From the NCBI GenBank assembly GCA_039583875.1, contig CM077159.1, positions 98,879,707 through 98,943,706 on the forward strand: a DNA stretch of 64,000 bases, written 5' to 3'. The position numbers and the translations under genes were made by a program. This document shows positions 11,990 through 45,635 of this stretch, one piece after another. Below the pieces are notes generated by a model that saw only the letters and a program-made list of their open reading frames with translations, did no database searches and had not been told where the DNA came from. Position 1 is the stretch's first letter. Every line of letters starts with the position of its first letter. This DNA comes from Platanthera guangdongensis (Eukaryota > Streptophyta > Magnoliopsida > Asparagales > Orchidaceae).

Positions 11990-12132
11990 TGTTGGGTACA
12001 TTGGTTTAAATGTACCTGATTTGAAGAAGCCTCACCCAACTCAATGATATATATCAAAATGTATTTGATGTGTTTTTGAGTTACTTGTGTAGGTTAAGTA
12101 TTTGCAGGACTGAAGCAAAAATTTCTAAGTCC

Positions 12133-13020
12133 ATGTGTCGACACCCAGAGGGAAAGTGTCGACACTTAAGAAGACTTGTGTCGACACCCAGACAAGCAGT
12201 GTCGACACTTGGAGTCATTGTGTCGACACCTGGGATGCAGAGTCGACACCAGACACAAAGTGTCGACACAAGGAGCTGTGTCGACACTCAGTGAAGAAAA
12301 GTGCAGTAAAGCTGGGTCGACACTTAACAGCAGTCTCGACACCCAGTGAAGCTGTGTCTACACCAGAAAGTGTCGACACTTGGAGATGTGTCGACACTCA
12401 GCAAAAGTCAGCAGAGACTAAGGTAAAGTGTCGACACCAAGAACAATGTGTCGACACTCAACAGAAGAGTCAGCACTTGAAGTAAGTGTCGACACCAAGA
12501 ACAATGTGTCGACACTCAGCTGAAGACTCAACACTTGAAGAAAGTGTCGACACATGGAGCTGTGTCGACACTTAGCAAAGAACAGAAAGATCGACAAAAT
12601 ATTCTAAGTACAAGTGTCGACACTAAGGAGATGTGTCGACACTCAGCTGAAGTCTCAACAGAAGAATCAAGTGTCGACACAAGGAGCTGTGTCGACACTC
12701 AACAAGTATCAACATAGAAGACTATGTGTCGACACCAAGAAGCAGTGTCGACACTTGACAGATTCAACACATAAAGATGTGTCGACACAAAGGACATGTG
12801 TCGACACTTAGAAGAATTCGGCAAAAGATAGAAGATCAAGTACTTGTGTCGACACTCAATTTCAGTGTCGACACATGTAGAAGAAACTGTGTCGAGACAT
12901 AGAATCTACAACACAAGGAGTTGTGTCGACACCTTGTAGACTTGTGTCGACACTTACACAACATGTGTCGACACTTGGTCTATAAGTGTCGACACTTAAA
13001 GACAGAAAGTCTCGACACTT
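12133..13020 (+). repeat. GTGTCGACAC palindrome array, 5' LTR of element 2
   Basis: I count about 29 perfect GTGTCGACAC sites plus several one-base variants in 890 bp, spaced about 17-40 bp. Many extend to the 12-bp palindrome AGTGTCGACACT. Sites stop about 130 bp upstream of the TATA box. Variants such as GTCTCGAC or GGGTCGAC are isolated. The long apparent ORFs across the array, on both strands, are by-products of its low complexity. Confidence 0.95.
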
Positions 13021-13067
13021 TCAGACAGTTAGAGAACTTTCAAGAATTGACTGGATGACTTGACAGC

Positions 13068-13160
13068 TGCCGTTCCAGCCGGTCTACAGCACCTGTCAGA
13101 GATGTCAGAATTCAGTTATGGACCGGTCCAGCCGGTTACCATGGAGAAGGCCTATAAATA
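13068..13160 (+). promoter_or_regulatory. Proximal promoter and TATA box of element 2
   Basis: CCTATAAATAGG at 13151-13162 is a standard plant TATA box (core 13153-13160). Upstream lie CTGTCAGAGATGTCAGA and two CCGGT motifs in inverted arrangement (GGACCGGTCCAGCCGGTTACC region). This block is conserved in elements A and 3, whose arrays differ in detail. The 3' LTR copy has its TATA at 23673-23680. Confidence 0.75.
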
Positions 13161-13611
13161 GGCTCATGCAGTCTACAGAAACTGTTGTTGAAGTTGTTGA
13201 AGCAATTCAAGGAAGTGGTTCACAGAGTTGTTTCAGTTATTTGATCAAGTATCAAATCAAGAAGACCTAGTTGTCCAAGTGCAGATCTAAGAAGTTGGAG
13301 AGAGAGGGCTCCATCCAAGAAATCAGCCATTGGAACTAGGCTGAGAAGAAGGATTCAGATTCATTCTGGATCTTAAGAAGCAGAGGTCAAGGATTAACTG
13401 CAGAAGGAATCAGTCTTATTCAGTTCTACTTTCAAGAAGCTTTGAAGAAAGCTAAGTCAGATTGAATCCAGCTGAGTTCTTCCAAGAACTCATCAAGAAA
13501 CTCACAACTCCCCTCTCTTGTCTTTGGGTTGTTGAGTTAATATTTGTAAAATCATTTTTATCTTGTAGGATCCTTTGGATCTGAGTGATTGTAAGCCTGA
13601 AATTATAAAGG

Positions 13612-13752
13612 CTGAGGGTAGGGCTTGAGAGCCTGAGTGTAGGAGATTGAAATCTCTGAGTGTAGGCCTTGTTGGCTGAGTGTAGGCCTTGTTGGCTGAG
13701 TGTAGGCCTTGTTGGCTGAGTGTAGGCCTTTGTGGCTGAGTGTAGGCTTTGT
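13612..13752 (+). repeat. Tandem repeat of GCTGAGTGTAGGCCTTGTTG, R/U5 of element 2
   Basis: Four to five copies of a 20-bp unit in direct tandem, repeated in the 3' LTR at about 24172-24272. Looser versions (GAGTTGTAGGCC) occur at the same place in elements A, 3 and 4. It lies downstream of the TATA box and is probably transcribed. Confidence 0.8.
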
Positions 13753-13865
13753 GGAAAAGCTGAGTTGTAGGGCCTTGGGCCTGAGGTGTAGGAACCAGTT
13801 TGGGTTCTGAGACAGTGGTGAAGTTTGGCCGAATCTAGTACACTGCTAGATAGGCGAAGGGGGAA

Positions 13866-13903
13866 AGTGGATGTACCCAAATCTTGGGGAACCACTATAA
13901 ATC
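13866..13903 (+). promoter_or_regulatory. Conserved LTR block GTGGATGTACCC...GGGGAACCACTATAAAT
   Basis: This block about 170-200 bp before the LTR end is nearly identical in all Sirevirus-type LTRs here: about 2131-2166, 13866, 24386, 39088, 51807 and 58787 on plus, and near 6942-6970 and 34925-34950 on minus. U3 regions of these families are otherwise unrelated, so the block is under constraint. Its role (RNA structure, processing, second TATA) is unknown. Confidence 0.7.
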
Positions 13904-14076
13904 TCTGTGTCTACTGTGCTGTGCTGTGTTTTGCTGTGTATGCTGTGTGAATGCTGTGCAAAAGTATAGTAGATTCTGTGATAGAACTGTTTGCTGCCAT
14001 TAAAGTTTAAAAAGAAATTGGTCACCTGTTCACCCCCCCCCCCCCCTCTAGGTGTTTAGGTACTATATCTTTCAAG

Positions 14077-14089
14077 TGGTATCAGAGCC
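14077..14089 (+). promoter_or_regulatory. Primer binding site, tRNA-iMet type
   Basis: TGGTATCAGAGCC begins two bases after the 5' LTR end. It is complementary to the 3' end of plant initiator tRNA-Met, the usual minus-strand primer of Ty1/copia elements. Confidence 0.93.
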
Positions 14090-14179
14090 AGGTTCCTCAA
14101 AAAGGACTAACAGTCTAAGGAGATCCTGATTGGCAGATTTAGTCTAAGGTAAATTACAGATTCAAGAAAATCAAGAACC

Positions 14180-16226
14180 ATGAGGTTCCTCTGAAAATCA
14201 CAAGGAATTGGGTTCCATGAAATTACATATATGCAGAAAGGAAATCTTTGGGATCTGGAAGGAAAGGGTAAGGTTGTTTATGGAAGTCTCAGACCCTAAG
14301 ATCTACATCACAGTCAAAGAAGGGCCATATGTGCCCATGAAGATATCAGTTCTAGATGCAAATCAGAGAACCCCAAAGGATTTCTCTAAGATGATTAAGG
14401 ATGAGATTGTCCTAGCCACCATGGACAAAAGGGCACAAAACATTATAGTCAGTGTCATAGATGATGCAACTTTTTAGAATCTTATACACTGTAAGACAAC
14501 CAATGAGATGTGGGACACTCTTATTGTGTATATGGAAGGTTCTGAAGAAGTTAGGCAAGATAGAAAATCCTTGCTAAATCAGGAGTATGAAAGTTTTAGA
14601 CAAGGAAAGGGTGATAGCATAACTGAGTGCTATAAGAAGTTCTACAGAATAGTGAATGAACTCATGTCTTATGGAAGAGAGTTCAGCAATTATGAACTAA
14701 ATGACAAGTTCCTAAGATCCCTAACTAAAGATTGGGACACAAAGATTTGTGCCATTAGAGAAATGGCTAAGTTGGGAGAAATTCCTCCACCTACACTATT
14801 TGGCAAGTTATTGTCTTATGAAATGCAGTTGACAGTGAGGAAAGAGGAGGAGAAATCAACAAGAACTGAACACAAGGAAAGAACAGTAGCCTTCAAGACA
14901 GAAGCCTCCAGAAAGTGCAGGAATAAGTCACCAACTCCACCTCCAAAGGCAGTTGAATCAGAGTCAGATGAGTCAGCCAGCACAAAGTCTGAAAGCAGTG
15001 AAAGTGATGAAGACTTTGCTGCCTTCACTAGACACTTTCAGAAATTCTTGAAGAAGAAACAGTGGAGGTCAAGGCCTTCTACTTCACAGGGAAAAGAAGA
15101 CCTATATCAGAATAAAAAGGCCTCAAAGAAGAACAGGAAGAGGACTAAGTCTAGCAAGGCAACTGGATCAAAAATAGTGTGCTATTGCTGCAATAGACAA
15201 GGTCATGTTATTGCAGATTGTCCTGAAAAGAGAAAGGAGTCTAGTGACAGAAAAAAGACTCATTTCAAAAGCAAGAAAGAGAAGTCTTTTGTTGCCAAGA
15301 AGGAGAAGACTCTATCAGATATCTATTCTTCAAAAACTGAGTCTGATGCTGAGGCATACATAGGGCTGTTTGCTGAAGAAGAAGAAGAAGAAGAATTCAT
15401 GCAGATAATGGAGTTTATTTATGAACAAGAAGACAGTCAATGCCAAGGGCTAATGGCTTTGACAGAGAATGACAAAATCCTGGAGCAGCCAGGACCCAGT
15501 AAGGTACAAAGTTCAACTCTAAGCTCAGTTTCTTGTTCTAGTACAGAATCAGATTCATCATCATCTAGTGATGAGAGTGTATCTGAGTCTGAGGAAGATA
15601 TTCATCATCTTATAGATGAATATAAAGTGCTGTTGCAAGCTTACAAGAAAAGCAAGTTCCTAGCCAAAAGTTAGGCAAAGGAAATTGCTGATCTAAAAGC
15701 TGCTGCAACAGATTCTGAGAAGCAATTTGATCAAAAGCTTAATGAGATAGCCAGGCTGAAACACATAACAGTGATTCAGATGGGAACTATCACCTTTAAG
15801 AATGATCAAATCAAGAGTCTGGAGATCAATCTTCAGAAAGAGAGAGAGTTTGTTGCTAGGTTTTCTAAACCTAAGTCAGTGTTACCCATAATTGATGAAT
15901 TTGTTCATCACAAGGGTAAAGCTGGACTGGGTTTTACTAGACCTGCAAGGACTGAGCAGTCCAAGTCCAAGTCCAAGGGCAAAGCCCCAACATTCAACAA
16001 GTCAGCTGTAGATAAGACAGCAAAGATAGTACCTAAGCAAAGGTACAATAAGTTTGAATGTTGGTGCTGTGGCAAAGTTGGCCACTTTGCAATGGACTGT
16101 TGGCACAATGCTTGTGCCAAAGTGAGTACCAAACTACCTGTTGGAAAGCCAGTAGGTAGCTTTGTCAGATTGCAAACTAACAAGTACCAAGGACCCAAGA
16201 ATTCTTTGGGTTCTAAGGTTCATTAA
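14180..16226 (+). pseudogene. gag: Sirevirus gag, element 2
   Basis: The capsid/nucleocapsid protein. The probable ATG at 14180 is followed by a one-base insertion; the true frame runs from about 14184 to TAA 16224-16226, broken by TAG at 14475 and 15672 (both CAG to TAG by comparison with elements 3 and 4). An N-terminal UBN2/gag-like region (IFGIWKERVRLF...) spans to about 14830, followed by a Ser/Asp/Glu-rich linker. Zinc knuckle 1 is CYCCNRQGHVIADC (15180-15221); then come a charged coiled-coil-like stretch and zinc knuckle 2, CWCCGKVGHFAMDC (16059-16100). Two knuckles about 290 residues apart is unlike most copia gags but is shared by all three Sirevirus gags here. Confidence 0.9.
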
Positions 16227-19200
16227 TCTGTTTTGCAGGTGAGTCCAAGTGGCCATACCCCAACATGATACTTGGACAGTGGATGTTCTAGACATATGAC
16301 TGGAACAAGAGGATTACTAAAGGACTACATTCCAATAAAAGATGCTCCAAAAGTAACCTCGGGTGGTTCTGAAAAAGGAATCATCAAAGGATTGGTAACA
16401 TTTCTAGCAACTTGGTTACCATTACTCAAGTGGCTTATGTTAAAGGGTTGAAGCACAACCTAATAAGTATAAGTCAATTAAGTGATGTAGGGTATGACAT
16501 CTCATTTATTAAAAATGGTTGTCATATCAGGAGGTCAACTGATCAAGAGATCATTTTGACTGGTTATAGGAAAAGGAATGTCTATTGCTTAGACATTATG
16601 GTTGAGAACAATGGTTCTCCAGTGTGTCTTGTAGCTGATGAGACAGTCTCTCATTGTGTCAAATGGCACAAGAGGCTTTCCCATCTTAACTACAAGACTA
16701 TTGGCAAACTCTTTAGCAAAGAGTTAGTGAGGAATGGTCCTCAATTTAAGTGTGTTAACGATGGTATTTGCTCAGCTTGTCAAAAGGGCAAGCAGACTAA
16801 ATCCACCTTTAGAAGCATAGAAAACAAAGATGCTGTGAGGTGTTTATACCTCTTGCATATGGATCTCTTTGGTCCAATGCCAGTTCATAGCTTAGGTAGG
16901 AAGGTCTATACCCTTGTAGTTGTAGATGACTACTCAAGGTTTTCCTGGGTGTTCTTCTTAAGACAGAAATCTGAAACACCTAGTGTCTTCTATAGCTTTG
17001 TCAAGCAAATTCAGAATGAACTAAACAGTACAGTGGTCAAGATTAGAAGTGACCATGGTACTAAATTTCAGTCTGATAGCATGACAAAACTATGTGAAGA
17101 ATTTGGGATATTTCAAGAATTCTCTTCACCTAGAACACCTCAGCAAAATGGCATTGCTGAGAGGAAGAATAGGACCTTGATAGAGGCTGGTAGGACCCTA
17201 CTAAGTGATACATCACTGCCAGAGTATTTCTGGGCTGAAGCAGTTAACACTGCATGCCATGTTATAAATAGGGCTACCATCACTAAAGGCCTCAACAAGA
17301 CCCCCTATGAAGTTGTGAAAGGCAGGAAACCAAATCTATCCTACTTCAGGATCTTTGGTTGCAAATGCTTCATACTTAACAATGGGAAGTCTTACTTGAC
17401 TAAGTTTGCTGCCAAGTCCCAAGAGAGAATTTTTGTTGGGTACAGCAACAACAGTAAGGCTTATAGAGTCTACAACTTGACTACACAAGTTGTAGAAGAA
17501 TCTGTGCATGTAGTTTTTGATGAGACTAAACTTATTAACAATGAGTTGTCTAGTACTGTATGCAGCCCCACGGGATTAACTTAGAAGATGGACAAGCTCA
17601 CTATAGAAGAAATACCTGCTACAAGACAGCAAGTAGAAGTCAGTGGCTGTTGTCCAGGGGGAGATCTACATGTGCCAATTGCTGAAGAAGTACAAAGAGT
17701 ACAGCATGATGGAGATGCTGAAGAGGTTCAACCAGAAGTTAGAATGCCTCCAGCCAACAGGCATCTTAGAGATCATCCAGTAGAGCAGATTATTGGAGAT
17801 CCAATACAAGGAGTACAAACCAGGAGCAGAAACATAAATGCAGCAATCTACTCCAGTTTTCTATCTCAAGTTGAACCTAAGAAGTTTGAAGAAGCAATAC
17901 AAGATCCACAGTGGACTGAAGCAATGCAAGAAGAGCTTAATCAGTTCAAGAGGTGCAAGGTCTGGGAACTTGTTCCTAAACCTAAAGACCACAATATAAT
18001 AGGAACCAAGTGGATCTACAGGAATAAGATGGATGAACAAGGGGTCATCATTAAGAATAAAGCAAGACTGGTTGCTAAAGGATATAGGCAAGAAGAAGGT
18101 ATTGACTTTGATCAAACCTTTGCTCCAGTAGCCAGACTGGAAGCCATAAGGATGTTCTTGGCCTATGCAACCTATCAAGGATTCAAGGTTTACCAAATGG
18201 ATGTCAAGTCAGCATTCCTAAATGGTAATCTTAAAGAAGAAGTCTATGTGGAACAGCCTTCAGGTTTTGTTGATCCAACTCTAGCCTCATCATGTCTATA
18301 GACTTAGGAAAGCTTTATATGGGTTAAAGCAAGCCCCTAGGGCTTGGTATGAAACCCTATCTAGTTTCCTCATTGAGAACAAGTTCTCAAGGGGGAAAAT
18401 AGATAAGACTCTATTCCTTAGGGAATCTAGAGGCAAAGTTATACTAGTCCAAATATATGTAGATGACATTATATTTGAGGTCTACTGAAAGCTGCCTTTG
18501 CAAAAAGTTTGCAAAACTGATGCAAGGTCAATTTGAGATGAGTAGTAGGGGAGAGCTGAAGTTTTTCTTGGGTCTCCAAGTTAAACAGACTGAAAGTGGT
18601 TTATCCATATGTTAGTCCAAGTTCACCCTAGAACTCATAAGGAAGTATGGTATGGATTCATCCAGTACCATGAAGACTCCTATGGGGTCAAGTATGTCTC
18701 TTAGCAAGGATGATGCAGGGAAACCTGTAGATGAAACCTTGTATAGAGGGATAGTTGGCTCCCTACTATACTTGACTGCTAGTAGACCAGATATCATGTA
18801 TGCTACATGTGTCTGTGCAAGGTATCAAGTCCTGCCCTAAAGAGTCTCATTTGACAGCAGTCAAAAGAATATTGAGATATCTAAAGGGCACTCCCTATCT
18901 AGGCCTCTGGTACCCTAGGAATGGGGATTTTGAACTAACAGGTTATTCAGATGCAGACTTTACAGGATGCAAAGAAGATAGAAAAAGCACTACTGGAACC
19001 TGTCAATTCCTAGGTGGGAGACTAATTTCATGGAGTAGCAAAAAGCAAACCAGTGTGGCTATCTCCACTGCAGAGTCAGAGTATGTGGCTGCAGGAAGTT
19101 GTTGTGCTCAACTTCTGTGGATACAACATCAGCTAGAGGACTATGGATTTCAAGTAAGTAGAACTCCACTCTTCTGTGATTCTACAAGTGCTATTTCAAT

Positions 19201-19402
19201 AGCTAATAATCCTGTATCCCATAGTGGAACAAAACATATTGAAATTAAATATCATTTTCTTAGGGAGCATGTAGAAAGAGAAGATATTTTATTAGAATAT
19301 GTTAAAACTGATAATCAAGTAGCTGATATGTATACTAAGCCCCTAGAAGAAGCTAAGTTCAATAGATTTAAAATTGAACTAGGAATGATAAACTTAGAGT
19401 AA
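16227..19402 (+). pseudogene. pol: Sirevirus pol (protease-integrase-RT-RNase H), element 2
   Basis: Order is the copia order. Protease: YLDSGCSRHMTGT near 16270, preceded by a TGA where the others have Trp. A one-base deletion near 16385 shifts the frame. Integrase (16412-17584): HKRLSH...CSACQKGK zinc finger, then HMDLFGP, RSDHGTKF and NGIAERKN with the D,D,E residues. A TAG (17582-17584) separates it from [11 protein letters not shown]..., [18 protein letters not shown] (18456-18476), broken by +1 insertions near 18280, 18475 and 18830. RNase H (18800-19402): YSDAD, ESEYVA, CDSTSA and QVADMYTKPL intact to TAA 19400-19402. Confidence 0.93.
16231..16246 (+). promoter_or_regulatory. Overlapping splice acceptor/donor motif at the gag-pol border
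   Basis: TTTTGCAG|GTGAGT (junction 16238/16239) combines a consensus acceptor with a consensus donor, 12 bases after the gag stop and in the zero frame with protease. The equivalent site is TTGTTGCAG|GTGAGT in element 3 (41423/41424) and GATTGTAG|GTATGT in element 4 (61335/61336). Splicing at this border is known for some plant copia elements; here it is inferred from sequence only. Confidence 0.5.
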
Positions 19403-19914
19403 GTTTACAGAATTGAAATTGGCTAAGTAAAAAGGTGTCGACACATAGATAAGTCTATGTCGACACATAATAATGGTGTCGACACTTCAGGAAATAGGTG
19501 TCGACACATCTAGGAAGTTGATGTCGGCACTTCAGAAAATTAGTGTCGACACATGCCAAGTAGGTGTCGACACATCCAAAGTGGTGTCGACACTTAGTAT
19601 TTACTCAGAATTTTCTAAGTAAAGTCTCGACAATGTGTCGAGTTATGTTGTGTCGACACATAATCAAGTGTCGACACATAAAATCTGTTGACTAAACTTG
19701 TGTTGACACATATGTGTCGAGACATTATAAGTCAGTGTCGACACTTATTGCCAGTGTCGACACATTTTAAGTTAGCTGTCCCGCCTGTTCATCTTCAAAA
19801 TCAGAAAGGTATAAATAGGGTTTTGTCTTTGTTTGTCGACACGCTTTCAAAGTTTCGAGACCAAACTTCTGTGTCGACACCTCTCTTCTCTCAAGACAAA
19901 TTCTACAAACCCTA
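19403..19914 (+). promoter_or_regulatory. pol-ORF3 spacer with GTGTCGACAC array and TATA box (putative internal promoter)
   Basis: This 512-bp gap has no ORF. From 19436 to 19770 it carries about a dozen perfect or near-perfect GTGTCGACAC sites, then GGTATAAATAGGG (TATA core 19810-19817), two more sites (about 19834 and 19871), and the ORF3 ATG at 19915 in the context CCCTAATGGCG. TATA to ATG is about 105 bases. The array-TATA-leader order copies the LTR promoter. Element 3 has the same layout at 46890-47371. Promoter function is inferred. Confidence 0.7.
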
Positions 19915-22205
19915 ATGGCGCCTAAGCTAGAGGAGAACGTCAACGAAGGATATGAGCTGGTGCCATACCAGAGGTAATGCAACAAGCTGCAGGAAGCAAG
20001 ATAAATCATATGAGAAGGATGGATCTGAGGATCTTTTCTAGATGGGACAGGGTGTTGTCAAAGGAAATGCCAACCCCTGAGAAGACAGGTTTTGAGAAAG
20101 AAATTCCTCCCAAGAAGAAAAGGAAGACTGCTTCAGTGGTTCAAGAGTCCACTAGCAGTTCTGATAGTGAAGAACAAGTTGTCTTCACTCCAGATGAGCA
20201 TGAGGAAGAGCCTGCTGTAAAGACTCCTGCTCCTCAAGAGGATGCTGAGATCCAGGGGGAGCTACCTCAAGCTAGCCCCATCCACAAGGATCAAAGCCAG
20301 GGGGAGCTTCCAGTTGTAGAAGAACCCTCTACACTTGAAAGTGAACAAGCCACCAACATCATACTAGAGGTAATCACTGAACTAAACACTTTAGATTTTT
20401 CTATGGAAGATACTGATTTGTCTGATGATCATCAACAAACTCAGTTGAATAGTCAAGTTCCAGATGCTGTTAGAGAAGACACATCTGCTGTACTAGAAGT
20501 GGTTCCTGATCCAGTGGTTGAAGAGCCTAGAATTACTCCAGCTCCTTCACCACAAGAGTACACTATGGAGGATTTATTTTTAAATCTGGATCAAGTGGAT
20601 TTTGACAAAGAACTTACTGCTGCTGAAAAAGAGAATGCTGATGTTGAGGGGGAGCAGATGGACATTCTGGAAGAGCCTATAAGGCAAGAAACTGAGAAGG
20701 CACAAGATGTGCAAACTGAAAGGCTTCCAAGCCCTAAGGAGAGGGTTGACATAACTAGCTCCTCAGAATCTGAAGATGAGGAGGCTACAAGGGCTAAGAA
20801 AAAGAAACTTTATGTCTTCAAAAGAAGGAGTCAAAGCTATAAGAAGGCCTTGTAGACTGTTGTTCCACAGTCTATAGTTCAGCAAGCACCATCAGTTGAT
20901 TATAGTGCACTGATGGTTGCAATGCAAATTAAACTGGATGAGCACAGGCAGGCAATAGAGAAGTATGTGGATGAAGGGCAGAAATCATTACAGTTTGATC
21001 TGGCCCAGGACATCAAGTCTATAAGGTTTGAAATGAACCTAAACAAGAAGGAGATGACTGACTGCTTCCACAAGGGTGGGAATGCAGTAGTCTATCTTGC
21101 AACTCACCAGGAAAAGATAAAGGCACAAGTGGATGACATAGCCTTGAAACAAGGTTATGTTCTTGAAAATCAGCTAAGAATGAATGACAACCTTACTGAA
21201 TCCCACAATGCCATAGTTACAGAACTCAAGAATCTGGCTGCAGGACAGACTCCAGCTATAGCAAAGGCAGATTTTGACAAAGTATTTCTAGAAGAAATCA
21301 CTGCTCTTAAGACTGCCATCCAAGATTCACAGAAGCTGATAACTGACAAACTCCAAAGGTTAAAACCCTTCTTCAAAGATGGAGTCAATTACTTGGATAA
21401 TCAGGTGAGATTTCAAAAGGATGATGTGAGAGATCATATTGAAAGAGAAGTCATAAAGGGGGAGAGAGTGTTAGTCAAGGCAAGCTCTGATCATGTAAAA
21501 TGGATATCAAATTCAATCAGGGCTACACTAGGATACCCTCCTCTCTGTGATGATGACAATGTGGCAGAATCTGGAATTCAACCTGGAATTCAACCTGCAT
21601 ATCTAGGAGGAGAGCAACCAGAAGTAGCTCAAGTCATTTATCCTCCTCCAGATTTTGAAATGGTGCATGCTGATGTACAGACCATGTACAGCCCACCTGG
21701 GGGCAAGGACAATGTGATTATTGAAAAGGTTGTTCAGCCTATTTCTGAAGCCATGCAAGAGGCATTACAGAAAGAAGAAGAGACAAGATTGTCAAAGAAG
21801 AGGTTTAGGGAACAAGCTGAGCAAAGACCAGACTTTGAGCAGTGGAGCCCTACCTCTAGAAACATTATATTAACTGTCTGGAAAGCTGCCAAGGATAACA
21901 TTCAAGACAGGAACAAATGGTTCTCTGAAGCTGAATGGAGAAAACATGAAACCAGACAGGAGGCCATTGTCCAATACAGAAGGAAGGCAAAGATGGGAAA
22001 GCTACCTCCTACTGCTCTGGAGCCTAGCAAGTACTTTCCAAAGCCATACCATTATTTTGAAAGACAGAAGATCAAAGCTGAAGAGCTTAAGAAGAAAGAT
22101 CTGAAAGGCAAGAAGCCTGCTGATGCTGAAACTGCTGTTGCTCCTGTCCAAGCTAAAGTTCAAGCTGGCAAAGGCATAGTAATTAAGGAGCCAGAACAAA
22201 AATAG
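19915..22205 (+). pseudogene. Sirevirus ORF3 (env-like position), element 2
   Basis: ATG 19915 (MAPKLEENVNEGYEL) matches element 3, but about 555 bp present there (47413-47970) are deleted here, apparently between two GCTGGT copies, shifting the frame at about 19960. The remaining frame runs 19977-22205 with a TAG at 20853-20855. Visible parts: an acidic Glu/Pro-rich region (20090-20740) with ELPQ/EGEQ motifs, basic KRRSQSYKKAL, a coiled-coil-like middle (20910-21400), the conserved EVIKGERVLVKA...WISNSIRATLGYPPLCDD, and a basic tail ending GKGIVIKEPEQK. No signal peptide or membrane segment is seen. Function unknown. Confidence 0.8.
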
Positions 22206-22509
22206 ATTTAGATTTTCTTGAAGTTTACCTTGTAATCTTTTGGATGTAAAACATTTTGTGAACTTCTGAAAATGTATAAGACAGAGATTAGAACAATATA
22301 TGATTAATATTTTTCATGTGTGTTCTGTGAATATGTCTATGTCTATTTCTTATTTGTTCTGTAATGATGAATTTGTATACATGTGAAATTAATACATGTT
22401 TATGTTTACCCTGCTGTACATTATCCTGCTTTACATCATTTTGTAATTTTAATTATGAATGGTGTATATCATTGACTAAGGGTTATGACTTCTCCAAATA
22501 GGGGGAGAT
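22206..22509 (+). other. 3' untranslated region and PPT of element 2
   Basis: AT-rich, non-coding, ending in the PPT AAATAGGGGGAGAT (22496-22509) immediately before the 3' LTR. Confidence 0.88.
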
Positions 22510-24589
22510 TGTTGGGTACATTGGTTTAAATGTACCTGATTTGAAGAAGCCTCACCCAACTCAATGATATACATCAAAATGTATTTGATGTGTTTTTGAG
22601 TTACTTGTGCAGGTTAAGTATTTGCAGGACTGAAGCAAAAATTTCTAAGTCCATGTGTCGACACCTAGAGGGAAAGTGTCGACACTTAAGAAGACTTGTG
22701 TCGACACCCAGACAAGCAGTGTCGACACTTGGAGTCATTGTGTCGACACCTGGGATGCAGAGTCGACACCAGACACAAAGTGTCGACACAAGGAGCTATG
22801 TCGACACTCAGTGAAGAAAAGTGCAGTAAAGTTGTGTTGACACTTAACAGCAGTGTCGACACCCAGTGAAGCTGTGTCTACACCAGAAAGTGTCGACACT
22901 TGGAGATGTGTCGACACTCAGCAAAAGTCAGCAGAGACTAAGGTAAAGTGTCGACACCAAGAACAATGTGTCGACACTCAACAGAAGAGTTAGCACTTGA
23001 AGTAAGTGTCGACACCAAGAACAATGTGTCGACACTCAGCTGAAGACTCAACACTTGAAGAAAGTGTCGACACATGGAGCTGTGTCGACACTTAGCAAAG
23101 AACAGAAAGATCGACAAAATATTCTAAGTACAAGTGTCGACACTAAGGAGATGTGTCGACACTCAGCTGAAGTCTCAACAGAAGAATCAAGTGTCGACAC
23201 AAGGAGCTATGTCGACACTCAGCAAGTATCAACATAGAAGACTATGAGTCAACACCAAGAAGCAGTGTCGACACTTGACAGATTCAACACATGAAGATGT
23301 GTCGACACAAAGGACATGTGTCGACACTTAGAAGAATTCAGCAAAAGATAGAAGATCAAGTACTTGTGTCGACACTCAATTTCAGTGTCGACACATGCAG
23401 AAGAAACTGTGTCGAGACATAGAATCTACAACACAAGGAGTTGTGTCGACACCTTGTAGACTTGTGTCGACACTTACACAACATGTGTCGACACTTGGTT
23501 TATAAGTGTCGACACTTAAAGACAGAAAGTCTCGACACTTTCAGACAGTTAGAGAACTTTCAAGAATTGACTGGATGACTTGACAGCTGTCGTTCCAGCC
23601 GGTCTACAGCACCTGTCAGAGATGTTAGAATTCAGTTATGGACCGGTCCAGCCGGTCACCATGGAGAAGGCCTATAAATAGGCTCATACAGTCTACTGAA
23701 ACTGTTGTTGAAGTTGTTGAAGCAATTCAAGGAAGTGGTTCACAGAGTTATTTCATTTATTTGATCAAGTATCAAATCAAGAAGATCTAGCTGTCCAAGT
23801 GCAGATCTAAGAAGTTGGAGAGAGAGGGCTTCATCCAAGAAATCAGCCATTGGAACTAGGCTGAGAAGAAGGATTCAGATTCATTCTGGATCTTAAGAAG
23901 CAGAGGTCAAGGATCAACTGCAGAAGGAATCAGTCTTATTCGGTTCTACTTTCAAGAAGCTTTGAAGAAACCTAAGTCAGATTGAATACAGCTGAGTTCT
24001 TCCAAGAAATCATCAAGAAACTCATAACTCCCCTCTCTTGTCTTTGGGTTGTTGAGTAAATATTTGTAAAATCATTTTTATCTTGTAGGATCCTTTGGAT
24101 CTGAGTGATTGTAAGCCTGAAATTATAAAGGATGAGGGTATGGCTTGAGAGCCTGAGTGTAGGAGATTGAAATCTCTGAGTGTAGGCCTTGTTGGCTGAG
24201 TGTAGGTCTTGTTGGCTGAGTGTAGGCCTTGTTGGCTGAGTGTAGGCCTTTGTGGCTGAGTGTAGGCTTTGTGGAAAAGCTGAGTTGTAGGGTCTTGGTC
24301 CTGAGGTGTAGGAACCAGTTTGGGTTCTGAGACAGTGGTGAAGTTTGGCTGAATCTAGTACACTGCTAGATAGGCGAAGGGGGAAAGTGGATGTACCCAA
24401 ATCTTGGGGAACCACTATAAATCTCTGTGTCTACTGTGCTGTGCTGTGTTTTGCTGTGTATGCTGTGTGAATGCTGTGCAAAAGTATAGTAGATTCTGTG
24501 ATAGAACTGTTTGTTGCCATTAAAGTTTAAAAAGAAATTGGTCACCTATTCACCCCCCCCCTCTAGGTGTTTAGGTAGTATATCTTTCA
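22510..24589 (+). repeat. 3' LTR of element 2 (2080 bp)
   Basis: A close copy of 11990-14074. Differences are mostly C/T or G/A changes, several at the CpG of the palindromes (for example GTGTTGACAC at about 22835). The array spans about 22653-23540, TATA 23673-23680, GTAGGCC repeats 24172-24272, conserved block from 24386. Followed by TSD GTACA. Confidence 0.95.
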
Positions 24590-24647: not shown

Positions 24648-26947
24648 TGTAACGCCCCGAAACTCAAAGGAGCAAAGGGGGACGTTTTGGGCCAGTTTGG
24701 GTTCTGGCAGTAGGCACACGGCATGGGACACGGGCGTGTCCCAGGGCGTGTCAAGCCTGTGTCGACACTCTATCGGGAAGTTGACACTTTGGTCTCGACA
24801 TTGTGTCGAGACTGGGCACACGGCCTGCGACACGGGCGTGTCGCAGGGCGTGTCGACCCGTGTCCATACTTAGCCGCGAAGTCGACACTCTGCTTTGACG
24901 AAGTGTCGAGACATGGCACACGGCCTGCGACACGGGCGTGTCGCAGGGCATGTCGACCCGTGTCGACACTCGTCCCGGGAAGTCGACACTTTGGTGTCGA
25001 CAATGTGTCGAGACAAGGCACACGGCCTAGGACACGGGCGTGTCCAAGGCCGTGTCATCAGGTCGACGATCTTTGCTCGACGAAGTGTCGAGTGTCGAGA
25101 CCGTGTATACGTCCTGGGGTCCAGGCGTGTTGAGGTGACACGGGTAAGGACACGGGCGTGTCCTAGAACCCGTGCAGTGCTCGGGTTGATTTTGGAGAAA
25201 AATGATGGGGTACACGGCCGGCCACACGGCCGTGTCAGGTGGAACACGGGCGTGTCAGCTCGAACACGGGCGTGTTTGATACCCGTGTGAGGTTCCAGGT
25301 GATTCGATTTTGACAGAGAATGAGGCACACGGCCCTGGACACGGGCATGTGTCAGGCCGTGTTCGGTCCAGATTGGGCATTTCAGTCCCGAATCAAAGCC
25401 GTTCGTTTCCATATTTTGAGATCCAACGGCTGGGGGTTGTTCCTGAAGGGATATACCCGGGATTGGACTTAGAAACCCTCACTTTTTCTTAAGTGTTATC
25501 TTTCTAAAACCTTAGAGAGAGAGGAGAGCCAAGGGAGGAAGAAGGAGCTAGACCCCGCCATTGGAGGAGCTTCGAAGCTCCGAATCGCGAGCCGACTCCG
25601 GATCCACGGAGGCAAAGCTAGTGCGGTGCTTTTCATCCGATTACTTTTCAATGGCACCAAAGAGGAACACTAGGGTAACGATCCTCATCTTGAGCATGAG
25701 TAGCTCTCTTTCTTTGCATAGGAAGCCCGCTTTCGTGAGTTTGCGGAGAGTTGGAGGTGTTCCTTTGGGTAGATATGTGAAGTCCCCGTTGTTTAGAGTC
25801 CGTAAGCGAGAACGGACATAGGCATGATGTGTGAAGCCTACCCGGACATGTTGGTCTGGATCGATGATGTTGCATTGCATAATGCCGGAGAAGACTCCGT
25901 GCTATTGGTTGTTTTTCGGGTTTTCTACATGGTAGATTGCAGCAGGGAGCCTTGGAGACTAACCCAAAGGTGCACCCGGAAAACTAGGCGGATACGAGAT
26001 CTTGCCAACTTGGTGGCCTGAGCGTCAACTTGAACATAACCGGGTTATGTGAATTGTGATGGATATGGGACTCGGTGGAAGTTTGACCCGCGCATATGAC
26101 TTAAATTGTCGTTGCGATGTGAGCACGGGTTAGATGGAACCGTACCCGTTCTATGTCGTTCGGTTAAAGAGACCTAAAGGCACGTGGCACTTACCGTTGG
26201 CATAGATTAGGGTCTTTGGCGGTTGATGACTTAAATTGTCGTGACCCAGACCAAGAAGACAAATTGCTCATAGGTTTGGCCGTCCAAGTGGCGGTGGTGA
26301 GTCCGGCTTTAATTGACGTGACATCGACCGGTTCACCGAGAATGTGCCCTGAGAGCACGGGGTGTGTGGCCGTGCGAGCCAACGTCTGTGATGAAATGGC
26401 TATATGTTTATATTGCTCGCTTATGCTAATGAAATGCAGGGAAGGAGCATCGCCGCCCCGAGTTGGGGGCGGGATCGTTATAATTTGGTCAGCATTGCTG
26501 ACCGTTGCCTTGTTTTGCCACCGTGCGGTGGTATGTTGCTTGCAGGTGCAGCTGGACCAAGCGGTCAATAGCGGGCTAAAGCCCGAATGCGAAGCCAGCC
26601 ATTGAAGGCCTAATTGGAAGTGTTTACTGCTTTATTCATGTGTGACCGGCCTGCGTGCCGTGGTTTGTAAAACATGTAATTTGAAGCGAAACAGTTTGTA
26701 AGGCCTTAAGGCTTATTTTGGGTATTTTGTATAACATTCCTATTTTATATTAGTGGACATTCGTGCTTTAATGCTGGGTTCTTTGTTACAACTTTTGTAT
26801 AATGCTTCCGCTAGAATGCTCTGTGTAGGACGTTGAGATTGGTTGGATGGTTTCCATAAGTAACCACCCGGTCTGTCTGTAGTATATGGCGTCGGGCCCC
26901 GGCCGGACCTACTGCTATATGCTATGTGACGGATAAGGGGTGTTACA
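24648..26947 (+). mobile_element. 3' LTR of Ty3/gypsy element G1 (2300 bp)
   Basis: Starts TGTAACGCCCCGAAAC directly after the PPT and ends GGGGTGTTACA. It is closely related along its length to the solo LTR at 43328-45630 and more distantly to 3709-5670. U3 holds a GACACGGGCGTGTC and GTGTCGACAC array (24712-25350). The downstream flank starts TGGGT; the left end of G1 is missing, so the TSD cannot be verified. Apparent ORFs inside are not supported. Confidence 0.92.
24712..25350 (+). repeat. GACACGGGCGTGTC / GTGTCGACAC palindrome array in gypsy U3
   Basis: About eight near-palindromes GACACGGGCGTGTC or variants (24728, 24823, 24932, 25030, 25148, 25241 and others), interleaved with TCGA-centred sites. 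At least two are perfect GTGTCGACAC (24759-24768, 24960-24969), the same 10-mer as in the copia elements. Confidence 0.85.
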
Positions 26948-37513: not shown

Positions 37514-39293
37514 TGTTGAGTACATTGGAAAATGTGTACCTGATTTGAAGAAGCCTCACCTTACTCAATGATATGAATCAAGTGTATTTGATGTTGTTTT
37601 GAGTTTATATGTGTAGGTTAAGAAAATGCAAGAATGCAGGAAAAGTTTCTAAGTCCATGAGTCGACACCAGAAGAAGCAGTGTCGACACTTATGAAGGCT
37701 TGTGTCGACACTGGAGAAAAGCTGTGTCGACACCTAGAGTCACTAGAGTCGACACTTGGAAAGGCTATGTCGACACCAGAAGAAACTGTGTCGACACTCA
37801 GAGGCAGAGTCAACACACACAGAAAAGCTTAGTCGACATCAACTGTGTCGACACACAGAGGTAGTGTCGCCACACAGAAGACTTTGTCGACATCAACTGT
37901 GTAGACACACAGGACTTGTGTCGACACATAACAGAGTTTCAACAAAGTTGATTTTTGTGAAGAAAAGAAGTGACTGTGTCGACACACATAACTAGTGTCG
38001 ACACATTCTACAGAAGTTGTGTCGAGAAGCAGTGTCAACACCAAGGGAGCTGTGTCGACACCACCAAGGGAGCTGTGTTGACACCACCAAGGCTTGTGTC
38101 GACACTAAGTCTACTTGTGTCGACACATGATGAAGTTCAGTATCGACACTTTGCTGACAGAGACAGAGTTTCAAGAAGTGACTGGAAGACTTGACAGCTG
38201 CCATAACCAACCAGTCTACTGCAACTGTTAGAGCTGTCAGAAGTTTGTTAGAAACCAGATCAGCTGGTTACCATGGAGGAAGTCTATATAAAGATATTAT
38301 ATATCAACAGATATACAGTTACACCCATGAGATAAAAAAAGTAAACATGAAAAACAGAAGAAGATTTTCAACAGAAGATCTAAGAAGACATTCTCATGTG
38401 GTGATCTACTCAGAGTTTGTCAAGAGAATTCAAAGAAGAATTTAGAAGAATCTTCAGAAGAATTTGGAGAGAGAGAGAGCTCCATCTATTCAAGTGAAGA
38501 AAGGGACTTACATCAACAAGTCTCTTAAGTGCAGATTCTGAACCAGTCTGCCAAGAAGAATTCAGATTGATTTCTGAATTTCAAGAAAGAAGCTGATTGA
38601 AGATCAACTTCAAAGGAGATCAACCCTACTGTGTTCAGATTCAAGAATCTTTAAAGAAAGCTAAGTTAGGTTGATCTCTAACATCAGATTCTTTCAATAA
38701 CTGATCAAGAAACCTTCCATCCTTTCTCTCTCAACCAGGGTGGTGGTAAATTTCAAATTTACATCTATGTTTTGTAGGATCTTTTTAAGATTTGAGTTGT
38801 AAGCCTGATTTATAAAGGCTGAGTTGTAGGAGATAAAGTTCTCTGAGTGGTAGGCCTTGTTGAAGGCTGAGATAGGGCTGGGAGCCTGAGTTGTAGGAGA
38901 TTTTCATCTCTGAGTTGTAGTCCTTGTTGAAGGCTGAGGTAGGGCAGATTGCCTGAGCTATAGGAGTGTGGACTCACTCTGAGTTGTAGGATCCTTGTTT
39001 GGGTTTTGAGCTGTAAGATTTGCATATCTGAGGAGAAGGAAAGAAGTTAGGCCGAATCTAGCACATTGTTAGATAGGCGAAGGGGGAAAGTGGATGTACC
39101 CAGACCTTGGGGAACCACTATAAATCAGTGTGCCATCTGTGATTGTGTGTGGTATTGTTATTTTTGTGCTGTGATATCTGTAGAACTATATGTTTCTATT
39201 AACTAACTGAATTAATATTCTGCCTTAGAAGAAAAATGAATTGCACCTATTCACCCCCCCCCCCCTCTAGGTGTTTAGGAAACAATTTTTTCA
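37514..39293 (+). repeat. 5' LTR of element 3 with palindrome array and TATA box
   Basis: Starts TGTTGAGTACATTGG (the 3' LTR has TGTTGGG), ends CAATTTTTTCA. GTGTCGACAC array at about 37669-38150, TATATAAAG at 38285-38293, GTAGGCC-type repeats at 38810-39010, conserved block from about 39088, C run near 39255-39265. It contains about two more array units than the 3' LTR, matching the 46-bp length difference. Confidence 0.93.
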
Positions 39294-39295
39294 AG

Positions 39296-39308
39296 TGATA
39301 TCAGAGGA
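39296..39308 (+). promoter_or_regulatory. Primer binding site of element 3 (one mismatch)
   Basis: TGATATCAGAGGA follows the LTR by two bases. The expected TGGTATCAGAG has G to A at position three. Confidence 0.8.
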
Positions 39309-39373
39309 AGGTTACTCAAAGATAGACTTAACAGTCTGAGTAAGATCTGTGAGGCAGAAGTAAGTTAAAGAAG

Positions 39374-41411
39374 ATGGGTTCAGGAGAAAACCATAAAGAA
39401 CTTGGTTCAATGAAGTAGCCTATCTGCAGGAAGGAAATCTTTGGAATATGGAAGGAAAGGGTCAGACTATTTATGGAGGCATATGATCCTAGAATTTATA
39501 TAACAGTTCAGGAAAGACCATATATTCCAATGAAGGTTTCTGTTCTTGATGCTAATCAAAGGATTCCTAAGGATTTTTCAGAAATGACTAAGGATGAGAT
39601 CATCTTGGCTACAATGGATAAAAGAGCATAGAATATTATAGTGAGTGACATAGATACTCAACATTCCAGAATTTGATTCACTACAAAACCTCCAAGGAGA
39701 TGTGTGACACATTGGTTGTCTACATGGAGGGTTCTGAAAAGGTTAGGCAAGATAGAAAGTCTATGCTTAATCAAGAATATGAGAGTTTCAGACAAGCCAA
39801 GTCTGATAGTATAACTGAATGTTATAAGAAGTTCTACAGAATTGTAAATGAACTAATGTCTTATGGAAGAATCTTCAGTACATATGAGCTGAATGACAAA
39901 TTCCTTATGTCTTTGACTAAGGATTGGGATACAAAGATCTGTGTCATAAGGGAAGTGGCCAAACTGGGAGAAATTTCACCTCCAACACTGTTTGGCAAAT
40001 TGCTGTCTTATGAGATGCAGCTGTTGGCAAGAAAGAAGGAAGAGAAAAATACAAAGGTTGACTATAGAGAAAAGTCAGTGGCCTTCAAGGTAGAAGCCAC
40101 AAGGAAGAATAGGAGGATGTCTCCATCTTCTCCTAAGAAAGATGCAGAAGTGATCTCAGAAAATTCTGATAATCACAGTTCAGACAGCAGTAATTCTGAT
40201 GAAGACTTTGCTGCTTTCACAAGATAGTTTCAGAGATTCTTAAAGAAGAAGAAGTGGAAATCTAAGCCATCCTCATCTCAGTCCAAGGATGACTATTATC
40301 AGAAGAGGAAATCATCCAGGAAGGACAGGAGTGGGACAAAGCCTAGCAAGTCAACTACATCAAAGATTATTTGTTATTGCTGCAACAGACCTGGACATGT
40401 TGTGGCTGACTGTCCAGACAAAAGGAAGGAGTCTGCTGATAAAAAGAAGTCTCAGCACAAGAGCAAGAAGGAGAAATCCTTGGTAGCTAAGAAAGAGAAA
40501 AGTTGGATAGATCAATCAACTTCAGAGTCTGAATCTGAGGCTGAGGCCTATATTAGTTTGTTTGCAACAGAAGAAGAGGATGAGTTCTTGAAATTACTGG
40601 ACTCTATCTATGAGCAAGAAGACCATCAGTGCAAAGGACTGATGGTTGTATCTAAAGAAGACCAGTGCCAGGATCAACCTTGTCCTAGTAAGGTAAAAAG
40701 TTTATCTGTAGATTCTGATTACTACACTGAGTCTGAATCAGATGCATCTGCATCAAGATATGAAGATGGGTCTGAATCTGAAGGAGATATTCATCAGCTT
40801 ATAGATGAATATGGGGATTTGTTGCAGGCACTCAAGAGAAGCAAAAACCTGGCCAAAAATCAGGCTAAAGAAATTGCAGCTCTTAAGTTGGCTGCCTCTG
40901 ATTCAGATAAGCTGCTGCATCAAAAGATGAATGAGATTGCCAAACTGAAAAACATAACCGTTATTCAGATGGGAACAATCACATTCAAAAATGATCAGAT
41001 CAAAGGTCTGGAAGATAGACTTCAGAAAGAGAAGGAAATAGTGGCTAGTTTCTCAAAGCCAAAATCTGTCCTACCCTTAATTGATGACTTTGTGTCTCAA
41101 AAGGGTAAGGTAGGATTAGATTTTAAGGGAACTGCATGGGCTCCCCAGTCCAATAATAAAGGCAAAGCCCCAGCACAAAACAAAAATCTGCTGTCAACAA
41201 TACAACTAAGAATGTACCTAAAAGAGGTAATAATAAGTATGAGTGCTGGTGTTGTGGCAAGATAGGCCATTATGCCTTAGACTGTTAGCACAATACCAGT
41301 GTCAGGAAGGATAGCAGTCTACCTGTTAGAAGAGCTGTAGGCAGATTTGTCAAGTTTCAGGCTAACTTGAACCAAGGACCCAAAAGTTATTTGGGTTCTA
41401 AGGTTAAGTAA
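39374..41411 (+). pseudogene. gag: Sirevirus gag, element 3
   Basis: The ATG at 39374 (MGSGENHKELGSMK) is followed by a TAG, then ICRKEIFGIWKERVRLFMEA. More stops occur, including TAG 40225-40227 (CAG in relatives), with frame changes near 39650 and near 41180 (one extra A). Zinc knuckle 1 is CYCCNRPGHVVADC (40372-40413) and knuckle 2 is CWCCGKIGHYALDC (41244-41285), followed by TAG where Trp is expected. Between them is a Ser/Asp/Glu-rich region and a coiled-coil-like stretch. Stop TAA 41409-41411 is in frame with the downstream protease. Confidence 0.88.
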
Positions 41412-43327
41412 TCTTTGTTGCAGGTGAGTCCAAGTTGCCATGCCCCTATATGGTACTTGGACAGTGGATGTTCCAGGCACATGACTGGAACAAGAGGATT
41501 GTTGAAGGACTACTCACAAATATTGAATGGGCCTAAAGTAATCTTTGGTGGTTCTGAAAAAGGAGTCATCAAAGGGTTTGGTAACATTTCTAACAACTTA
41601 ATCAATATCACTCAAGTGGCTTATGTGAAGGGTTTGAAACACAACCTAATAAGCATAAGCCAGCTGAGTGATCTTGGATATGACATTTCATTTATCAAAA
41701 ATGGGTGTCATATCAAGAGGTCAAGTGATCAAAAAGTCATATTGACTGGCTATAGAAAAAGAAATGTGTATTGCCTAAACTTTGAGAGTGAGAATAAAAA
41801 TTCTCCTATCTGTCTTGTGGCTGATGAGAAAGCCTCTCATTATGTCAAATAGCACAAGAGGCAAGCTCATCTTAACTACAAGATTATTGACCAACTCTTT
41901 AGTAAAGAGTTAGTGAGGAATGGTCCTCAAGTTAAGTGCTTTAAGGATGAAATATGGTCAGCTTGTCAAAAAGGCAAGCAGACCAGATCCTCCTTTCATA
42001 GCCTAGAAACCAAAGACTCAGTGAGGTGCTTATACCTCTTGCATATGGATTTATTTGGTCCTATGCCAGTTCATAGTCTAGGTAGGAAGGTCTACACTTT
42101 TCTGGTAGTAGATGACTATCCTAGATTTTCATGGGTATTCTTTCTGAGGCAGAAATCTGAAACCTCAAATATCTTCTGCAATTTTGTCAAACAAATTCAG
42201 AATGAATTAGATAGTTCAGTGGTCAAAATCAGAAGTGACCATGGAACTGAATTCCAATCTGAAAGTATGACAAGGTAGTGTGAAGAATTTGGGATTCATC
42301 AGGAATTCTCCTCGCCTAGAACACCTCAGCAAAATGGCATTGCTGAAAGAAAGAATAGGACATTGATTGAGGCTGGAAGAACACTATTGAGCGACACTAC
42401 TCTCCCAGAATATTTCTGGGCTGAGGCAGTAAACACTGCATGTCATGTTCTCAATAGGGCTTCCATCACCAAAAGCCACAAAAAGACACTCTATGAGGTT
42501 ATGAAAGGCAGAAAACCAAACTTATCCTATTTAGGATCTTTGGTTGCAAGTGCTATATGCTTAACAATGGCAAGTCTCACCTAACTAAGTTTGCTTCCAA
42601 ATCCCAAGATGGGATATTTGTTGGGTACAGCAATAATAATAAGGCTTATAGGGTCTAAATTTGGCTACTCAAGTTGTAGAAGAGTTTGTTCATGTCATAT
42701 TTGATGAATCTAGACTTATTAACAGTGAGTTGCCTAGTAGTTCTTGTAGCTCTACAGGTATACAGTAGAAGATGGACCAGCTTACTATCAGAGAAGATCC
42801 AACTGCAAAGCAGGATGAGGAAAATGGTAGTTGCTATCCAGGGGGAGTACAAGACACTCAAGAGGCTGATGAAGACCATGAGGTGCAGCATAATGAAGAG
42901 ATTGAAGAAGGTCAAACTGTTGATAGTTTACCTCCAGTAGTTAGACATTTAAAAGATCATCCTGGACACCAGATCATTGGTGATCCAAGACATGGAGTAC
43001 AAATAAGAAGCAGGAACTTAAACACAGTTCTTTGCTCAAGCTTCTTATCCCAATTGGAACACAAGAGATTTGAAGAAGCTATTCAAGACCCGCACTGGAT
43101 TGATATTATGCAGGAGGAGTTAAATCAATTCATAAGGTGCAAGGTCTGGGAGTTGGTTCCAAAATCAAAGGGCCACAATGTCATAGGGACAAAGTGGATT
43201 TATAGAAAAAAGCTTGATGAGAGTGGGATCATAGTGAAGAACAAGGCAAGACTAGTTGCCAAAGGATACAGGCAGGAAGAGGGCATAGACTTTGATCAGA
43301 CTTTTGCTCCAGTGGCAAGGTTGGAAG
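41412..43327 (+). pseudogene. pol: Sirevirus pol, first part, element 3
   Basis: Protease WYLDSGCSRHMTGTRG (from about 41447) continues in frame through NISNNLINITQVAYVKGLKHN to a TAG at 41850-41852 (Trp in relatives). Integrase: SACQKGKQTRS, LLHMDLFGPMPVHS, VKIRSDHGTEFQ with D,D present, then NGIAERKNRT; stops at 42276-42278 and a frameshift near 42530. A TAG (42766-42768) lies between integrase and RT, as in element 2. RT begins about 42772 and is cut at ARLE by the solo LTR. Confidence 0.9.
41415..41432 (+). promoter_or_regulatory. Splice acceptor/donor motif at gag-pol border, element 3
   Basis: TTTGTTGCAG|GTGAGT, junction 41423/41424, at the same place as 16238/16239 in element 2. Confidence 0.5.
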
Positions 43328-45630: not shown

Positions 45631-45635
45631 GGAAG

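Follow-up and report, generated by a model that had tools for sequence, protein, structure and literature searches.

The expression of the env-like third gene of Sirevirus elements has been unsettled (PMC2829016). In SIRE1 the env-like ORF is reached by stop-codon readthrough from pol (as given in PMC2829016), a database paper of 2012 (PMC3414828) has stop-codon suppression or an internal promoter among the mechanisms of env-like gene expression, and a review of 2020 (PMC7264820) ascribes env-like transcription to the 5' LTR. An internal promoter for these genes was suggested in 2002 (according to PMC2829016). In the study by Bousios et al. 2010 (PMC2829016), palindromes termed RM were described in Sirevirus LTRs 5' of the TATA box and again before env, and 77 of 79 linker RM copies lay 5' of ENV. 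That study supports an internal promoter with a possible regulatory role and describes the promoter as not conclusively identified. The literature searched, which covered few subscription journals, yielded no account in which a Sirevirus internal promoter had been identified.

The same question is raised by the window analysed here, a stretch of 64,000 nucleotides from Platanthera guangdongensis, in which ORF3 is separated from pol by a non-coding spacer. In a first-pass annotation it had been proposed that ORF3 has its own promoter and that this promoter is controlled by the same factor as the LTR. The spacer was examined in the window and in related copies, and it is probably an internal Pol II promoter for ORF3 that would share the factor of the LTR.

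Elements in the window

Self-BLAST resolved two elements of one family, elements 1 and 2; their features are listed in Table 1. The LTR pair of element 1 was 97.9% identical across 2080 bp, and GTACA, read from the flanks, is its 5-bp target duplication on both sides. Element 2 was flanked on both sides by AGTTG and contained a nested insertion at approximately 43328-45630. Profile matches of element 1 to Retrotran_gag_2 (E 2.7e-11) and RVT_2 (E 1.6e-37) correspond to a Copia-type gag and pol. The PPT AGGGGGAG followed by AT/TG at the 3' LTR, located at 22500 in element 1 and at 50261 in element 2, is a Sirevirus-type junction. Extra copies of this PPT were observed 3' of pol, five in element 1 and seven in element 2, most of them within the ORF3 region and not 3' of ORF3. 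A palindromic RM array in the LTR 5' of the TATA box, repeated ahead of ORF3, was a further Sirevirus trait. The core of the palindrome was TCGA and not the CGG-CCG of the Sirevirus RM. The CGG-CCG core is common in Sirevirus and not required, since Tnd-1 is an exception to the 12 of 13 RMs with a CGG-CCG core and RMs were described in only 13 of the 21 elements in PMC2829016.

Table 1. Positions of the features in the window
Feature	Position	Strand	Basis or remark
Element 1, Copia/Sirevirus LTR retrotransposon	11990-24589	+	self-BLAST
LTRs, element 1	11990-14074 and 22510-24589	+	self-BLAST
U3 array of GTGTCGACAC, 5' LTR of element 1	12135-13018	+	35 boxes with at most one mismatch, 29 exact
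LTR TATA box TATAAATAGG, element 1	13153-13162	+	134 bp past last box
Pol-ORF3 spacer, element 1; proposed internal promoter and ORF3 leader	19403-19914 (512 bp)	+	
Internal palindrome array, element 1	19435-19763	+	13 boxes with at most one mismatch; ends 46 bp 5' of TATA
Internal TATA box TATAAATAGG, element 1	19810-19819	+	105 bases 5' of ATG
Box at TATA+23, over expected start site	19833-19842	+	
Further box 3' of TATA, in predicted leader	19871-19880	+	
ORF3 start, element 1	19915-19977	+	20-aa frame, ended by 556-bp deletion
Rest of ORF3, element 1	19977-22205	+	ORFs 19977-20855 and 20913-22205
Element 2, same family as element 1	37514-52004	+	self-BLAST and flanks
Spacer of element 2, layout as in element 1	46890-47371	+	array 46916-47215, TATA 47263, ATG 47372
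LTR promoter of element 3: TACTCGAGTA array and CTATAAAAGG	57649-58215	+	read from sequence

The spacer between pol and ORF3

In element 1 the pol stop codon ends at 19402 and the ATG of ORF3 is at 19915. The array, the TATA box at 19810 and the ATG 105 bases further on, as described in the first-pass annotation for the 512-bp spacer, were confirmed. The palindrome GTGTCGACAC, referred to as the box, was present in 11 exact copies, or 15 when one mismatch was allowed, and 13 of these 15 boxes preceded the TATA box. When the spacer was dinucleotide-shuffled 200 times, GTGTCGACAC turned up 0.07 times on average and at most once. The internal TATA box lies within GGTATAAATAGGG (19808-19820), and TATAAATA arose in 4 of 1000 spacer shuffles. 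ORF3 of element 1 is broken, as a 556-bp stretch is absent relative to the copy L020, with a 9-bp microhomology at the junction.

The three frames of the element 1 spacer contained 7, 8 and 10 stops. None of the 44 spacers sampled (see below) had an open frame through the spacer, every frame carrying at least two stops. Plain stop-codon readthrough from pol was rejected for the sample, in agreement with the exclusion of readthrough in the first-pass annotation.

Sampling of the family

Copies were sampled irrespective of their spacer, through a motif at the C-terminus of pol that was found at 12143 forward and 12122 reverse places (24,265 in total). The first 42 of 100 listed places were used in genome order, all of them on contig C1 within 25 Mb. 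Rows 3-42 gave 40 copies (L051-L090), while rows 1-2 lie in L044 and L045; these, together with both window elements, constitute the 44-copy alignment. The 44 sequences share ancestry, 42 of the spacers were drawn from a single contig, within its first 25 Mb, and the sampling is biased toward copies retaining the pol motif. Thirteen spacers less than 90% identical to each other served as representatives. An earlier set of 30 copies (L009-L038) had been picked for the similarity of their spacers, after scoring 40 of 4122 candidates, and was for this reason left out of the conservation claim; L026 was dropped, as ATGGC was not found at the expected place.

Conservation of the array and the TATA box

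The array was kept in all 40 copies of L051-L090, with 9-17 boxes within 600 nt past the pol stop. Of the 44 copies, 43 had TATAAATA in the aligned position, as did 12 of the 13 diverged representatives; L051 was the only copy without it. The ATG of ORF3 could be aligned in 42 of 44 copies, and the distance from TATA to ATG was 104-111 bp across the aligned copies. A TATA box in a conserved position at a fixed distance is a trait of Pol II core promoters.

The first-pass annotation had asked whether array and TATA box are conserved among family members while other spacer bases drift, and the alignment bore this out. Mean pairwise identity in the 13 representatives was 0.855 for the boxes and 0.824 for the TATA 12-mer, compared to 0.896 for pol codon positions 1-2, 0.702 for pol position 3, 0.640 for the other upstream spacer and 0.596 for the leader. 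Boxes and TATA box are thus held nearly like protein-changing sites, and the remainder drifts like third positions or faster. The conservation of the TATA box was matched by none of 20000 draws of random non-box columns. Among contiguous non-box 10-mers, 4 of 143 were as conserved as the TATA box, which ranked 18 of 502 by 10-mer conservation, with mostly box windows ahead of it. A further conserved run, TGGCTAAGTAAA at 19420-19431, is left unexplained.

Expected start site and leader

Between TATA+30 and the start of ORF3, only 3 ATGs were observed in the 44 copies compared to 30.7 expected from base composition, and 1 compared to 9.0 in the 13 representatives. A leader ATG was present in 3 of the 44 copies. 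Upstream of the TATA box the density of ATGs in the representatives was 0.95 per 100 nt. The scarcity of ATGs past the TATA box fits an mRNA starting just 3' of it and would be unexpected for a long scanned leader starting in the LTR.

The boxes kept a fixed position around the TATA box. A box started exactly at TATA+23 in 41 of the 43 TATA-bearing copies and in 10 of the 12 TATA-bearing representatives. The quartiles for the end of the last upstream box were -47 and -46 relative to TATA, with extremes of -48 and -4, and a further downstream box began at +61 to +63, counted in 41 placements over the 43 copies. Box-to-box spacing clustered at 18-23 bp. As to helical phasing of the boxes, Rayleigh values were 0.46-0.56 for periods of 9.5-13 and did not single out 10.5 bp.

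A second family

Element 3 is located at the right end of the window; the spacer between its pol and ORF3 is not contained in the window and corresponds to L039, 1205-1786. This spacer contained nine TACTCGAGTA boxes with at most one mismatch and no GTGTCGACAC, and TTTATAAAT was found 148 bp 5' of an ATG. The family was sampled with element 3 and 14 copies from 40 scored matches, mostly the more diverged ones. All 15 spacers contained 9-12 TACTCGAGTA boxes and none contained GTGTCGACAC. A TATA-like site was observed 134-154 bp 5' of the ATG and read, by eye, TATAAA in 12 of the 15 aligned copies, TATAAG in two and TATATAT in one. These copies were too alike for conservation to be measured; the TATA site was matched by non-box columns in 1409 of 10000 draws, and identity was 0.922 for boxes and 0.924 for non-box columns. 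ORF3 of element 3 was found to be a distant homologue of ORF3 of the element 1 family (tblastn E 9e-19, 26-38% identity in two pieces). As TACTCGAGTA occupies both sites in the element 3 family and GTGTCGACAC both sites in the element 1 family, LTR and ORF3 spacer switch palindrome together.

The spacer of element 3 had a 100% match on contig C14, approximately 51 kb from L009, and L009 was 100% identical to the window copy. Because of these matches, the window and its match are probably a duplicated or haplotype region and no independent insertion.

The boxes as candidate binding sites and the CpG pattern

The tolerance of the box to mismatches was dyad-symmetric. Among 112 distinct variants in 44 spacers the paired values were (28,21)(4,4)(17,17)(4,3)(18,9), and the dyad pairing ranked 9 of 945 pairings. 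Positions 2/9 and 4/7 were nearly fixed, 1/10 and 3/8 were tolerant and the central CpG was intermediate. Such a symmetric pattern is the trace that a symmetric dimer would leave.

The gag-pol region was nearly devoid of CpG, with 3 observed compared to 190 expected in element 1 and 5 compared to 182 in the pieces of element 2. The 1380-bp pol tail of 29 spacer-selected copies had 0-2 CpG compared to 50.3 expected, and all 69 arginine codons in the five listed element 1 ORFs were AGA or AGG. CpG observed/expected in element 1 was 1.00 for the spacer and 0.77 for the U3 array, and decreased to 0.27 and 0.11, respectively, when the boxes were masked. The boxes held 84 of 107 CpGs in element 1, 47 of 82 in element 2 and 725 of 947 in the 44 spacers. 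Box-masked spacers had a median ratio of 0.52 in the 44 copies, less CpG-poor than element 1. The ratio was 0.16 in the sampled ORF3 heads, 0.43 in gag-pol of element 3, 0.14 in the ORF3 stretch of element 3 (L039, 2001-4000) and mostly 0.3-0.9 in 2-kb pieces of window sequence not belonging to the family. CAG/CTG was not depleted.

The process removing CpG, whatever its nature, has spared the boxes in LTR and spacer promoters alike. As a measure of methylation decay, TG/CA was counted and occupied 10 of 463 CpG cells in boxes, 2 of 145 in other spacer and 17 of 222 in ORF3, in a set chosen by spacer similarity and with no CpG column in pol. At the central CpG of the box, 27 transitions were counted among 715 boxes in the 44 spacers, no more than at positions 1 and 10 (27 and 40).

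The ORF3 product

ORF3 encodes 818 aa in the natural copy L042 and was open for at least 150 codons in 18 of the 38 sampled copies with a placed ATG. Its N-terminus is under purifying selection; the median dN/dS, taken over the 135 of 190 pairs whose dS exceeded 0.15, was 0.08, a value that is approximate because fourfold sites are near saturation. The 818-aa protein has the sequence PPKKKRK, a second basic stretch and an acidic middle (net charge -40 for residues 241-480). No transmembrane segment was found in this one copy using a simple scale (best 19-aa hydropathy 1.14), and from its sequence the protein looks nuclear rather than membrane-bound or envelope-like. The Pfam search gave just a sub-threshold match to Transposase_32 (E 0.02), and the structure prediction had a pLDDT of 38. 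The homologues among the matches listed (at least 5 and at least 11) were every one from Platanthera and gave no function. A tentative and rather doubtful extension is that ORF3 is a nuclear regulator with its own promoter, which would recognise the family palindrome at three sites, namely the LTR, the promoter of ORF3 and the start site of ORF3. A regulator of this kind, a transactivator or an anti-silencer, would exert feedback on an element that stripped nearly all CG from gag-pol and kept CG in the operator boxes.

Expression of ORF3 and alternative explanations

An internal ORF3 promoter co-regulated with the LTR is well supported by the features of the spacer. A dyad-symmetric DNA-binding factor would occupy the GTGTCGACAC boxes in LTR U3 and spacer alike, and TBP would bind TATAAATA in the spacer. 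Transcription would start approximately 25-35 bases past the TATA box, within the box at TATA+23 or immediately past it. The resulting leader of approximately 70-85 nt, nearly free of upstream ATGs, would present ORF3 as the first reading frame, so that ORF3 would be made from its own mRNA, apart from gag-pol, yet under the same factor. Of the proposal in the first-pass annotation, an own promoter answering to the factor of the LTR has passed both the conservation test and the comparison with the second family; we infer factor binding, start site, transcription and co-regulation from these patterns.

The part that did not hold is the origin of the promoter. According to the first-pass annotation, the spacer repeats the order of the U3 promoter, its array and TATA box being a duplicate of it. 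The order is indeed the same, and box, order and TATA word are identical in LTR and spacer, as expected if the spacer promoter were a recent U3 duplicate or recombination product that is passively retained. The geometry, however, differs. The gap from the last box to the TATA box is 134 bp in the LTR compared to 46-47 bp in both window spacers, and boxes 3' of the TATA box are seen in the spacer only, the LTR promoter of element 1 having none within 120 bp 3' of its TATA box. With no downstream box in the LTR and a box at +23 in the spacer, the internal promoter is arranged differently from that of the LTR. Box-masked spacers of both window elements were without significant similarity to their LTRs (best E 0.06), nothing being alike outside the boxes, and the spacer layout persists across the 13 diverged representatives. 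Descent from the U3 is unsupported, and the spacer as a U3 duplication was rejected; passive retention of a recent copy is already largely refuted and extremely unlikely.

ORF3 RNA could also arise through splicing of the transcript from the LTR, a route reported for the gypsy element Bagy2, with the spacer array and TATA box as relics or otherwise used. For other plant elements, spliced env-like RNAs have been described or predicted (PMC7264820, PMC2829016). The leader 5' of the ATG, as read from the sequence, is pyrimidine-rich. No canonical conserved splice acceptor was found between TATA and ATG in the 13 representatives, however; the only AG kept in at least 9 of them is at 19858 (12 of 13), in the context CGAG, which by consensus is a poor splice acceptor. 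An acceptor farther upstream would place several ATGs ahead of ORF3, given their density there, and splicing leaves the conservation of the TATA box unexplained, making this route unlikely. Alternatively, the spacer array might be an enhancer, an insulator or a methylation-control region of the whole element, with the TATA box unused. The retention of CpG by the boxes amid a CpG-poor element would agree with such a function, and motif repeats in transposable elements can be targets of element-encoded anti-silencing proteins (VANC, PMC5735166). The fixed distance between TATA and ATG, the nearly ATG-free leader and the box at TATA+23 are, however, not predicted by it, and it is considered very unlikely. 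The internal promoter for ORF3 is the preferred explanation.

A family with 24,265 pol-motif matches in one genome thereby offers a precise and testable promoter, defined by its TATA box, a predicted start site and the boxes it has in common with the LTR. Should the internal promoter be real, some plant retrotransposons would run two coordinated transcription units, like foamy viruses, and the family-specific palindrome would be a handle on the shared factor.

Comparison with known systems

In foamy viruses the 3' accessory genes are transcribed from an internal promoter, and among plant LTR elements Grande is a Ty3/gypsy element. Palindrome clusters before env and the hypothesis of an internal promoter are already published (PMC2829016), and the present case is a strong, testable instance of that hypothesis. 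The likeness to the Sirevirus RM lies in palindromes clustered in the LTR 5' of the TATA box and before the env-like gene; the difference is in the core, which is CGG-CCG there (except in Tnd-1) and TCGA here (PMC2829016). Added to the published idea are a positioned internal TATA box with a start-site box, fixed spacing and a nearly ATG-free leader, tested here in 44 copies, together with the CpG pattern.

In foamy virus, internal promoter and LTR both answer to one factor, Tas (PMC4929722), as proposed here; this is a vertebrate retrovirus with a virus-encoded factor whose binding has been shown, whereas the factor of the present family is proposed from sequence patterns. Gene23 of Grande (Gomez-Orte 2013, as cited in PMC7264820 and PMC11963269) is an accessory gene located 3' of pol in a plant LTR element; it is transcribed from a promoter of its own and gives a nuclear product, but it differs in its antisense orientation. 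VANDAL elements (PMC5735166) likewise have family-specific short motifs that are amplified in non-coding regions and differ between related families; they are, however, DNA transposons, and binding by VANC has been shown, whereas for ORF3 binding is a candidate function. In ONSEN (PMC3907296), CG context is also missing from part of a plant Copia element. It is the promoter LTR of ONSEN that is without CG and CHG, whereas in element 1 it is the coding body that is without CG, CAG/CTG being undepleted, and the promoters keep CG in their boxes.

Divergence of ORF3

Copies of the GTGTCGACAC family, named here after its palindromic box, were compared pairwise, using 40 copies sampled through a pol C-terminal motif (L051-L090) and copies picked by spacer similarity (L011-L038). 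ORF3 was far more divergent than pol and the array among near-identical copies. In the 36 pairs with a spacer identity of at least 0.95, median identity was 0.968 at the pol end versus 0.856 in ORF3, and divergence climbed starting just upstream of the TATA box. Because ORF3 differs much more than the nearly identical pol and array, with the rise placed just before TATA, the sequences suggest that ORF3 modules have been swapped among lineages. A sharp step seen in one of the comparisons coincides with the query end and may partly be a selection effect. The junction of the 556-bp ORF3 deletion in element 1 (relative to copy L020), at about 19964, carries a 9-bp microhomology, as would be expected of template switching or recombination.

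Repeats, duplication and CpG content

Both repeat copies listed below contain tandem units of about 101 bp containing the words GTGTCGACCC and GTGTCGACAC.

Coordinates of additional features in the window
Feature	Position	Location	Remark
Repeat copy	43328-45630	Inserted within element 2 pol	90.5% identical to 24648-26947
Repeat copy	24648-26947	Adjoins element 1 3' LTR, just downstream	90.5% identical to 43328-45630
TGGCTAAGTAAA	19420-19431	Element 1 spacer, directly past pol stop	Conservation equal to boxes
Extra polypurine tract octamers, AGGGGGAG	20254, 20299, 20647, 21457	Element 1	Within ORF3 region, not downstream of ORF3
Extra polypurine tract octamers, AGGGGGAG	48153-49293	Element 2	Within ORF3 region, not downstream of ORF3

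G000:C14 near 142.70-142.76 Mb matched the spacers of element 1 and element 3 alike at 100%, about 51 kb apart versus 45 kb in the window; this stretch is probably a duplicate or haplotype copy of the window.

CpG content was examined over 14508-19402 of element 1, the pol tails of L009-L038, and L051-L090. Gag-pol of the GTGTCGACAC family was extremely purged of CpG: observed/expected was 0.02 in element 1 gag-pol (14508-19402), and 37 of the 40 sampled 270-bp pol tails (L051-L090) contained none. CAG/CTG was not depleted alongside in gag-pol of this family. Compared with this 0.02, gag-pol of element 3, which belongs to a second family, reached 0.43, without a comparable purge.
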